NCBI RefSeq assembly: GCF_023702125.1
Contig: NZ_CP098415.1
Span: 496,001 to 560,000 of the forward strand
Source: Halorubrum hochsteinianum
GTDB taxonomy: Archaea; Halobacteriota; Halobacteria; Halobacteriales; Haloferacaceae
DNA: 64,000 bases
Direction of reading: 5' to 3'
The notes beneath the pieces were generated by a model. That model did no database searches. It was not told the DNA's origin and worked only from the letters and a program-made list of their open reading frames with translations. A program made the position numbers and the translations under genes. This document shows positions 1,600-60,634 of this stretch, piece by piece. Position 1 is the stretch's first letter. The number at the start of each line of letters is the position of its first letter.

Positions 1600-1859
1600 G
1601 AACGCCTCCAAAGCCCCAGCCGCGAGGACTCGATGGGCTCGCTGTGGTCCTCGTCGCTCACTCCGTTCGCTCCTGCGGTCCTTGCGTCGCCCGTCTTCGT
1701 CCTCGCGACTGCCCCTTTAAGTCCCGCCCGACCGCACAGCGACCGCACCTCACACCTCCCCAACCTCGCCGGCCGGCCTCCGCTTCGCTCCGGCCGACCG
1801 ACTCCCTCGCGCGTGCGGTTCGCGCCGCGGTACGGCGATCACCGGCACGCGCCACCGCG
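1600..1859 (-). repeat. dispersed structured intergenic element, copy 1
   Basis: Read on the minus strand, the element opens with GCGGTGGCGCGTGCC at 1859. Its 8-base arm at 1852-1845 pairs perfectly with 1816-1809 (GCGCGTGC/GCACGCGC). Between the arms is a hairpin CGCCG-TACCG-CGGCG. A GC-rich variable stem follows, then the conserved block GAGGTTGGGGAGGTGTGAGG, a GGGCGGGACTTAAAG block, GAGCGAACGGAGTGAGCGA, and a tail ending GGGGCTTTGGAGG near 1601. Three related copies occur at 45371-45699, 54428-54560 and 59781-60114. No long reading frame in it looks like a protein. It sits between two divergent promoters. Confidence 0.85.
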
Positions 1860-45370: not shown

Positions 45371-45699
45371 CACGAACACCACCGAAGCCCCGGCCGCGAG
45401 AATCTCCGAAAGACTGTCGCCCCGCTTCGCTCGGCGCTGCGTCTTTCGTGGTCCCGCTCGCGTTCCGGGACTCGCGCGGCTCGCTGTGCGCTCAGTCGCT
45501 CACTCCGTTCGCTCTTTGCGGTGCTTGCGTCGTCGTGCTTCGGCCTCGCGGCTGCTCCTTCGAGTCCCGCCCCCGCACCGCACCTCACACCTCCCCAGCC
45601 TCGCGGCTCACGCTTCGCGGCTGCGCCGCTCGCGTTCGCCGCGTCCCTCGCGCGTGCTGTCTCGCGCCCTTCGGGCGCTCGCCGGCACGCGCCACCGCG
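45371..45699 (-). repeat. dispersed structured intergenic element, copy 2
   Basis: Read on the minus strand, the element opens GCGGTGGCGCGTGCC. The outer arms 45692-45685 and 45657-45650 pair perfectly, and the inner hairpin is GCGCCC-GAA-GGGCGC. The variable module is a three-part stem: CGCGGC/GCCGCG outside, ACGC/GCGT, and GCGGC-GCA-GCCGC at the tip. Conserved blocks GAGGCTGGGGAGGTGTGAGG, GGGCGGGACTCGAAG and GAGCGAACGGAGTGAGCGA follow, and a longer 3' part ends GGGGCTTCGGTGG. This is the longest unexpanded copy. Confidence 0.85.
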
Positions 45700-54427: not shown

Positions 54428-54560
54428 GCGGTGGCGCGTGCCGGCGAGCGCCCGAAGGGCGCGAGTCGCACGCGCGAGGGAGTCGGCGGCGACCATCGGG
54501 AGCCGCCGACGAGGCTGGGGAGGCGTGAGGCTGCGGTTGTGGGGCGGGGCTTCGGAGGTG
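54428..54560 (+). repeat. dispersed structured intergenic element, copy 3 (short form)
   Basis: The outer arms 54434-54441 and 54468-54475 pair perfectly, with the inner hairpin GCGCCC-GAA-GGGCGC as in copy 2. The variable module is a single perfect 9-bp stem GTCGGCGGC/GCCGCCGAC. The conserved block GAGGCTGGGGAGGCGTGAGG follows and then jumps directly to the tail GGGGCTTCGGAGG, so the middle part present in copies 1, 2 and 4 is deleted. This minimal copy defines which parts are core. Confidence 0.85.
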
Positions 54561-58925: not shown

Positions 58926-59750
58926 ATGGACGTGTACGGACTGATCGGAAACCCGGTCGGCCACTCGCTGTCGCCGCCGATGCACGAGGCGGGCTACGAG
59001 GCGCTCGGACTCGACGCGCGGTACGTGACCTTCGAACCCGACGCCGACGCCGCGGCCGGAGCCATCGCGGGCGCGGCCGACCTCGGCGTCGCCGGCCTCA
59101 ACGTCACGGTGCCGTTCAAGCGCGACGCGCTCGACGCGGTCGACCCCGCCCCGCTCGCCGAGCGCATCGGCGCGGTCAACACGGTCGACTACGGCCCGGT
59201 CCGCAAGGGCGACGCCGACCGCCCGCGCGGCCACAACACCGACGCGGCCGGGGTGACCCGGGCGCTCGAACACCACGACGTGACGATCGACGGTCGCGAC
59301 GCGCTCGTGGTGGGCGCGGGCGGGGCGGGGCGGGCGGCCGCGTTCGCGCTGGCGGACGCGGGCGCGGCGGTCCACGTCGCGAACCGCACCGCCGGACGGG
59401 CGGTCGAACTCGCGGAGGCGGTCCCGGGCGCGACCGGCGGCGGGCTCGACGACCTCGCCGACCGCGTCGCGGCCGCCGACCTGCTCGTCAACGCGACGAG
59501 CGTGGGGATGGAGTCGCCCGAGGAGACGCCGGTCCCCGCGGAGCACCTCCACGGCGACCTCGCGGTGCTAGACGCGGTGTACGCCCCGATCGAGACGCGC
59601 CTGCTCCGGGAGGCGGCCGACGCGGGCGCGACGACGGTCGACGGCGCATGGATGCTACTGTTCCAGGGGGTCGAGGCGTTCGAGATCTGGACCGACGAGG
59701 ACGCACCGGTCGAGGCGATGAACGCGGCGCTGCGAGCGGAACTGGAGTGA
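58926..59750 (+). CDS. aroE: shikimate dehydrogenase
   Basis: The 274-residue enzyme reduces 3-dehydroshikimate with NADPH in the chorismate pathway. The substrate-binding SLS motif ([10 protein letters not shown]), catalytic K65 (TVPFKRDA) and D106 (GHNTDAAG) are present, as are the NADP loop [10 protein letters not shown] and the NRT motif (ANRTAGRA). ATG 58926 fits the family start, with a CTTTTGTCGG promoter element about 25 bases upstream. Chorismate made in this pathway feeds the pabB gene at 61331. Confidence 0.94.
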
Positions 59751-59780
59751 TCGGCGGGGCTTTATTTATAAACAGACGAC

Positions 59781-60114
59781 GCGGTGGCGCGTGCCGACGA
59801 GCGCCGCACCGCGGCGCGAGTCGCACGCGCGAGGTCGTCGGGCTTCGCCCGACTGCCCGTGGCGCGTCGCGCCACGCTGTCGCCGGCGCGTAGCGCCGGC
59901 TGTCACCGGGCTAAGCCCGGTTGCCCGAGGGACCGTGTCCCTCGCTGCCAGAGAATCTTCGATTCTCGCTGGAGTCGGCCGGCCGGAGCGACGCGGAGGC
60001 CGGCCGACGAGGCTGGGGAGGCGTGAGGATGGTTGCGGTGCGGGGCGGGACTCGAAGCCGCAGTCGTAGCAGAGTCAGTCACGTACAGCCAAGCGACCGG
60101 GGCTTCGGAGATGC
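59781..60114 (+). repeat. dispersed structured intergenic element, copy 4, with expanded hairpin array
   Basis: The outer arms 59787-59794 and 59823-59830 pair perfectly. The inner hairpin CGCCGC-ACC-GCGGCG differs in sequence from copies 2 and 3 but keeps its pairing. The variable module is an array of seven perfect hairpins (59837-59853, 59858-59876, 59882-59900, 59905-59921, 59926-59944, 59951-59967, 59974-60008). The first six have 7-8-bp stems and tight loops of about 3 bases, and are joined by CTGYC-like linkers. The conserved block GAGGCTGGGGAGGCGTGAGG, a GGGCGGGACTCGAAG block and the tail GGGGCTTCGGAG follow. TATA-like AT-rich tracts flank both sides (59762-59772 and about 60133-60142). 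Confidence 0.85.
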
Positions 60115-60175
60115 CCGCCGCCTCCCTCCTGTCAGCTATTTATAATTGATAAGCGACGATCCGAGCCGAGATTTA
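60115..60175. other. spacer between the repeat element and copD-like gene end
   Basis: An AT-rich stretch, AGCTATTTATAATTGATAAG (about 60130-60150), could be the terminator of the leftward CopD-like gene or a promoter-like tract bordering the repeat element. No gene is present. Confidence 0.35.
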
Positions 60176-60634
60176 TTAGATCATCGTCGGGCTGGCGAGC
60201 AGCCCGGCGGTGACGATCAGCCCGACCGAGACCGCCGACGCGCCGTAGAGGAAGGGCTTGGCGTCGCGGGCCGGCTCGCGGAGCTTCCCCGCGTCGAGTC
60301 CGTCCGCCAGCTTCGAGCCGGCGACCTCGACGAGGCCGGTGCCGACGAACCACAGCCCCAGCATCGTCAACACGAGGTGGCCCCGGGGCGTGCCGGTCAG
60401 CGCCTCGAACGTGTACAGGGTGCCGGCCATGTGGCCGCCGGAGAGGACGAACGCGACCGCGGCGATCCGGGTGATCCACCGCAGGCGACCGACGACCGAG
60501 CCGAGCGCGTCGCTACCGACGTCGCCGCGGAGCGCGGGCGGGAGTACCGCGAGGGTGACGAACAACACGCTGCCGACCCAGAGGATCGCGAAGCCGACGT
60601 GGACCGACCACATGACGGGGTTGATGACGTCCAT
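60176..60634 (-). CDS. CopD-family membrane protein
   Basis: The 152-residue protein has four membrane helices of the CopD type, with conserved His in SVHVGFAILWVG and in SGGHMAGTLY that could bind haem or copper. CopD proteins are linked with copper uptake or membrane electron transfer, but many archaeal members are uncharacterised. A TATA-like TTTATAAGT on the minus strand (60656-60664) lies 22-30 bases upstream of ATG 60634. It may act together with the copper operon at 30-34 kb, but is far from it. Confidence 0.8.
   Translation of the reverse strand: MDVINPVMWSVHVGFAILWVGSVLFVTLAVLPPALRGDVGSDALGSVVGRLRWITRIAAVAFVLSGGHMAGTLYTFEALTGTPRGHLVLTMLGLWFVGTGLVEVAGSKLADGLDAGKLREPARDAKPFLYGASAVSVGLIVTAGLLASPTMI

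Follow-up and report, generated by a model that had tools for sequence, protein, structure and literature searches.

Paired hairpins arrayed in a dispersed Halorubrum element and in frame in protein genes: a putative miniature mobile unit of about 45 bp

The window, i.e. the whole 64-kb stretch of Halorubrum chromosome analysed here (G000:C1:496001-560000), contains several copies of a dispersed non-coding element, hereafter called the host element. The copy of interest lies downstream of aroE, whose stop codon is located near position 59750, and its designation as copy 4 in the preliminary description was correct, since four element cores were counted in the window (Table 1). About 127 copies were recorded in genome G000 (67 forward and 60 reverse, compared with 0 and 1 for the reversed-pattern control). 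The core was present in all 52 Halorubrum genomes, at 9 to 194 copies per genome. Beyond Halorubrum, 90 copies were found in one genome, 16 in a second one and a few sporadic occurrences elsewhere, most genera of the family being devoid of them.

Three parts recur in host element copies: the 5' helix P1, which bears the variable hairpin P2; the stem P3, likewise variable; and the core GAGGCTGGGGAGGCGTGAGG. In most copies the interval between P1 and P3 reads GCGCGAGGGAGTCGG. Mismatches in P1 were G-T in 16 cases vs A-C in one, and in P3 eight vs two, these being small numbers drawn from related copies. Because G-T predominates in both stems, selection at the RNA level may act on the host element itself. 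An Rfam search over positions 59600-60300 gave nothing above gathering score. The host element thus described forms a large and apparently undescribed family of structured repeats, with interchangeable P2 and P3 and RNA-like mismatches in P1 and P3. Copies are also preceded by an AT-rich stretch at -21 to -3, which may reflect a promoter or a target preference. When the locus downstream of aroE was compared across species at the DNA level (L171-L200), some Halorubrum species had the host element and others lacked it, and those that had it differed completely in its stems. Elsewhere in the chromosome, a tandem repeat with a period of 63 bp (L040, G000:C1:452492-452776) adjoins an element copy and shares sequence with the 3' end of the host element.

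Table 1. Features of the window, in window coordinates. Hairpins are written in the orientation in which their coding relatives read.
Feature	Position	Strand	Remarks
Host element copy 4, dispersed non-coding Halorubrum element	59780..60107	+	Ends approximate, from comparison of copies; 5' GCGGTGGCGCGTGCC ... core ... GGGGCTTCGG 3'
Core GAGGCTGGGGAGGCGTGAGG of copy 4	60009..60028	+	
Host element core, further copy	54511..54530	+	
Host element core, further copy	45583..45602	-	
Host element core, further copy	1748..1767	-	
TATA-like TTTATAAA, 5' of host element	59765..59772	+	Such a box in only about 20% of copies
Hairpin insert, 137 bp	59834..59970	-	Units of 47 + 45 + 45 bp
Hairpin A, class R	59837..59853	-	GTCGGGC-GAA-GCCCGAC (+ strand GTCGGGC-TTC-GCCCGAC)
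Hairpin B, class L	59858..59876	-	CGTGGCGC-GAC-GCGCCACG; partner of A
Hairpin C, class R	59882..59900	-	GCCGGCGC-TAC-GCGCCGGC
Hairpin D, class R	59905..59921	-	ACCGGGC-TTA-GCCCGGT
Hairpin E, class L	59926..59944	-	CGAGGGAC-ACG-GTCCCTCG; inner partner of D
Hairpin F, class L	59951..59967	-	GAGAATC-GAA-GATTCTC; outer partner of C
Variable stem P3 of host element	59974..60008	+	Found in every copy, stem sequence differing

At the place of the insert, host element copies devoid of it read GCGAG|GGAGTC. The insert itself is made of six consecutive perfect hairpins with stems of 7-8 bp (59837-59967), joined from A to F by the linkers TGCC, CTGTC, TGTC, TGCC and CTGCCA. Seven perfect hairpins had initially been reported; six were confirmed, while the seventh, a real hairpin with an 11-bp stem and a 13-nt loop, is the ordinary P3 stem of every copy and does not belong to the array. 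This was the only array of at least three hairpins in the 64-kb window. Chance does not account for it, since 20 order-2 Markov controls yielded 62 pairs, one triple and nothing longer. A 400-kb sample screened for stems of at least 7 bp gave four hairpin pairs, two of them chance-like and two in host element copies (one with stems of the window array, the other with different ones). Folded as single-stranded DNA, the insert reached -53.9 kcal/mol vs -32.6 +/- 2.6 for shuffled sequences (z -8.3). A CRISPR array was ruled out, as there are no identical direct repeats with unique spacers: the hairpins differ, the linkers measure 4-6 nt and the Rfam model CRISPR-DR20 scored 24.8 bits, below its gathering score of 42.

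When the arrays were read in a common direction (for the window, that of the minus strand), the stems fell into two sequence classes, named L (GAGGCGC, GAGAATC, GAGGGACC, CGAGGGAC, CGTGGCGC and GCGAGAGC) and R (GTCGGGC, GCCGGCGC, GCCGGCGGC, ACCGGGC, GCCGGAC and ACCGGAC). About 12 stem families, with variable 3-nt loops, made up most hairpins among 124 distinct arrays, a collection assembled by similarity to the window array and by perfect stems, so that vocabulary and perfection are biased. The stems had previously been described as unrelated in sequence: those of the window do differ from each other, yet they belong to this limited and reused set. The same modules were recovered in other arrays, other genes and other species. 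The units are L-R pairs of about 45 bp (range 45-51 bp), of which E-D is the commonest and also the nested one. The window array accordingly reads LLRRLR, i.e. F(E D)C followed by B A.

All 39 arrays with an even number of at least four hairpins formed balanced bracket strings (LLRR 17, LRLR 12, LRLRLR 5, LLRRLR 4 and LRLLRR 1), compared with 12 of 39 expected and a maximum of 25 in 2000 shuffles of the order within arrays, the two classes having been set after the data were seen. Counted as distinct architectures, 24 out of 24 were balanced (7.5 expected, maximum 15 in shuffles). With the fixed rule that R begins with [AG][CT]CGG, the score was 21 out of 23 (6.6 expected, maximum 14); both failures concerned the final R stem, and in one of the two arrays this stem was recognised only in shortened form. 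In a train/test split all 11 test arrays were balanced; they covered four architectures, none of them nested, ACCGGGC having been left unclassified and most arrays lost by this procedure. The association between L and R partners amounted to 1.53 bits vs a maximum of 1.02 in 2000 shuffles, and in nested arrays the inner pair was always (C)GAGGGAC-ACCGGGC. Because the arrays behave as balanced brackets, one pair is often nested in the linker of another. Gain of hairpins one at a time, as first proposed, is therefore replaced by gain of L-R pairs of about 45 bp, with pairs nesting inside pairs. Side-by-side LRLR arrays could have been formed by tandem duplication. Slippage of one unit, already discarded in the preliminary description, is indeed ruled out by the different stems and the nesting.

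Related arrays were found in 33 of the 52 Halorubrum genomes (E below 1e-10), most host element copies being without any. At the site occupied in the window, other copies carried F-C alone (L014 and L015), F-(E-D)-C (L011) or the full set of six hairpins (L009, L010 and the window). Hairpins were also encountered at other positions of the host element, in both orientations. As whole pairs differ at the same site between copies and between species, the earlier suggestion that hairpins are gained as whole modules was upheld. The three full arrays of G000 were 98-99% identical in flanks only 71-84% identical, which fits gene conversion; the finished six-hairpin array was thus probably copied between element copies in this genome. 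One might go further and consider that recombination is all there is, gene conversion and unequal exchange having reshuffled old arrays among the many host element copies. These near-identical arrays in diverged flanks, together with the inversion of A-B in L012, are in its favour. It does not explain, however, why the units recur at new codons in unrelated genes (see below), and it gives no exact nesting in a linker, which makes it a very unlikely explanation on its own. Outside cellular genomes, the search of a second viral pattern and of a phage collection returned no arrays, and a match on viral contig L320 was discarded as a chance occurrence of the pattern with no array around it.

L-R units also occurred in frame inside unrelated protein genes across Halorubrum. 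Of 25 such coding inserts, 23 had the same reading orientation. Their length was a multiple of three in 19 out of 19 (45 or 90 bp), as against 7 out of 38 in the host element, and stems of frame-breaking length (GCCGGCGC, GCCGGCGGC, GAGGGACC and CGTGGCGC) were absent from coding arrays. Purifying selection on inserts would give both the length bias and the missing stems.

The gene for 5-formyltetrahydrofolate cyclo-ligase (FCL) was the most informative in that different states occur at one and the same codon. The insert was lacking in 26 species and present in 16, with +45 bases in six, +57 in one (decayed), +90 in eight and +132 in one. In the nested +90 forms, a unit of the E-D type lies exactly in the linker of the first pair (SEAQRASG-[SEGQSPSGNRASPGD]-SRTQSGD). 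At this same codon, the E-D type was found alone in one species and the outer pair alone in others. On the FCL gene tree, built without the insert, at least eight state changes were needed, four of which were forced by well-supported branches; transfer or recombination of the FCL gene could imitate part of this repeated gain. With so many species and different states at a single codon, the sequences give a direct view of gain, nesting and decay.

Further Halorubrum genes with in-frame units comprised hemC, purD, a zf-CHY protein, a DUF7095 protein, histidine kinases and merA, and the merA insert was met at the same place in a plasmid of Natrinema zhouii. In other genera, such units were recorded in genes for a glycosyltransferase, a Rieske protein and ribosomal protein L2. 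An Lhr-type helicase carried an insert in G044 and G004 and none in 21 orthologues. The Lhr helicase of G026 (L333) displays a short remnant, AGDSEALG, which suggests an insert that was partly deleted. The peptides SEAQRASGSRAKPDD and SEGQSPSGNRASPGD and the VEHGST repeats come from inserts, and it would be wrong to take them for conserved domains.

These coding inserts bear directly on the proposal, put forward in the preliminary description, of an RNA scaffold or protein-binding array, in which the transcript of the host element would present a growing row of hairpins whose structure is kept by selection. Host element and array do fold well together as RNA (z -3.8), and the stems proper to the host element show the RNA-like mismatches reported above. 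The array hairpins, by contrast, had no G-U preference (13 GT/TG vs 22 AC/CA among their mismatches in the RNA wobble test, again small numbers from related copies), and in coding genes they decay by point mutation. Unrelated proteins contain the same arrays in frame, and most host element copies have no array to present. Such a role was therefore abandoned as highly improbable.

Hairpins could also arise in place, local sequence being made self-complementary by template switching or quasi-palindrome repair. The perfect stems, the variable and sometimes inverted loops (TTC/GAA) and the resemblance of the L hairpin of histidine kinases to the native SVEHG codons speak in favour of this process. 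It predicts, though, stems derived from local flanks, whereas stems of the shared vocabulary stand at loci without matching flanks, and unrelated loci and different genera have identical stem families in common, in every case as L-R pairs. As the sole source of the arrays, we hold this process to be extremely improbable.

At a probability of about 70%, we favour the view that three insertions of a minimal mobile DNA unit are stacked in the window array, the unit being some 45 bp long and organised as AGC-(L hairpin)-TGGCAG-(R hairpin)-GAC on the minus strand of the window. F-C would be the outer pair, with E-D nested inside it and B-A beside it. Comparison of copies, genes and species showed units that, as judged from sequence, are gained or lost whole, nest and occupy both genes and the host element. 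Their mobility, and the way in which they would move, are inferred. Units would be moved by a process acting on folded single strands and would insert beside GAC or GGC before AGC, without clear target duplication. None was apparent at the host element site or in FCL. Compared with MITEs, which combine a target duplication with terminal inverted repeats that match a transposon, the units lack an inverted repeat spanning their whole length, and a 3-bp GAC duplication is possible at some coding sites. Each insertion would bring new linkers of the GAC/GGC-AGC type, so that arrays would grow at their own linkers. Hairpins would be perfect on arrival and decay afterwards, and frame-breaking units would be purged from genes. 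A more specific and tentative proposal, to which we give clearly less than even odds, is that a haloarchaeal system inserts folded two-hairpin single strands recognised by shape and by their short linkers (L and R ends), irrespective of stem sequence. If true, stems would be free to vary while units nest, and host proteins would gain ready-made in-frame peptides.

Several known systems resemble these units in part. The PATEs of Haloquadratum walsbyi are depicted, in the relevant parts of their description, as non-coding elements with near-terminal palindromes and no target duplication; the same parts mention elements inserted in other elements and leave the mobilisation of small mobile repeats (SMRs) unexplained (PMC3119063). 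The haloarchaeal host, the lack of clear target duplication and the nesting are thus common traits, and L-R units likewise have near-terminal palindromes and are too short for a transposase. However, PATE palindromes resemble those of IS605-type transposons, a relationship that was not found for the array stems in the Y1 neighbourhoods sampled (see below), SMRs have terminal inverted repeats, and in-frame coding insertion of PATEs or SMRs was not met in those parts of the description (PMC3119063). In REP doublets, pairs of small palindromes form the replicative unit (PMC3116915), which recalls the L-R pairs, with their balanced arrays and 45-nt steps. Group 3 REPs include perfect palindromes of 16 nt with a 3-nt interruption (PMC8266576), much as in the hairpins described here. 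REPs and REPINs associated with a RAYT (TnpAREP) are nevertheless extragenic, with one sequence per RAYT, a preceding GTAG and pairs in which one REP is repeated in inverted orientation. In the present units L and R are unlike, some 12 stems are used, genes contain them and the bases preceding array hairpins are CAG, GGCA or GACA instead of GTAG.

These likenesses raise the question whether the units, like REPINs or PATEs, are mobilised in trans, either by a RAYT or by a Y1 transposase of the IS200/IS605 type. A small hairpin towards each end, a short adjoining target and the lack of any clear target duplication correspond to the anatomy of PATEs (PMC3119063, in the parts concerned) and of REP doublets (PMC3116915), and Y1 transposases occurred in 41 of the 52 Halorubrum genomes. 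Yet no Y1 transposase (PF01797) was found in G000, an assembly of two contigs that is 99% complete, nor in five other array-bearing genomes (G002, G009, G018, G028 and G044). The array stems were absent from 20 sampled Y1 neighbourhoods (99.5 kb, IS1341/TnpB-only elements being left out) except for one hairpin of the vocabulary. The units moreover have neither a fixed tetranucleotide such as GTAG nor a single palindrome sequence, and we consider mobilisation of this kind unlikely.

BOX elements of Streptococcus pneumoniae are likewise dispersed and modular, with inner modules variable in number, which is reminiscent of the host element. Their boxB modules have one common sequence, and nested hairpin pairs are not known from them.

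As for insertion into genes, a counterpart is provided by the Rickettsia palindromic elements (RPEs), several families of which occur in intergenic regions and in frame in many unrelated genes, where they add a peptide (PMC10969869). Short palindromic repeats and in-frame insertion in unrelated protein genes are shared by both (PMC10969869). RPEs measure about 150 bp, compared with 45-51 bp for the archaeal unit, which also has two separate hairpins, nests in itself and builds bracket-like arrays. In none of RPEs, REPINs, REPs, PATEs and SMRs does coding insertion go together with bracket-like nesting, a pair of unlike hairpins and a stem vocabulary that is reused. Our search of the open-access literature found no description of L-R hairpin units, and these have the appearance of a hitherto undescribed miniature mobile element, not of an RNA scaffold. 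Mobile DNA in frame in housekeeping genes is best known from the Rickettsia elements; the present case is archaeal, with a much smaller unit and a simple grammar. The units are a source of new protein segments and offer a test bed for the movement of hairpin DNA.

Two minor observations complete this description. At the N-box of haloarchaeal histidine kinases (L150, L154, L364 and L368), tandem SVEHGST... repeats correspond to L-R hairpin units. Finally, hairpin pairs with other stems (ATCAGAACGC/TCACGAGAGC and CGAGACGCC/GCCAGAAATC) were observed in the 3' domain of the host element at L025, L222, L034 and L218, and possibly represent another unit family.
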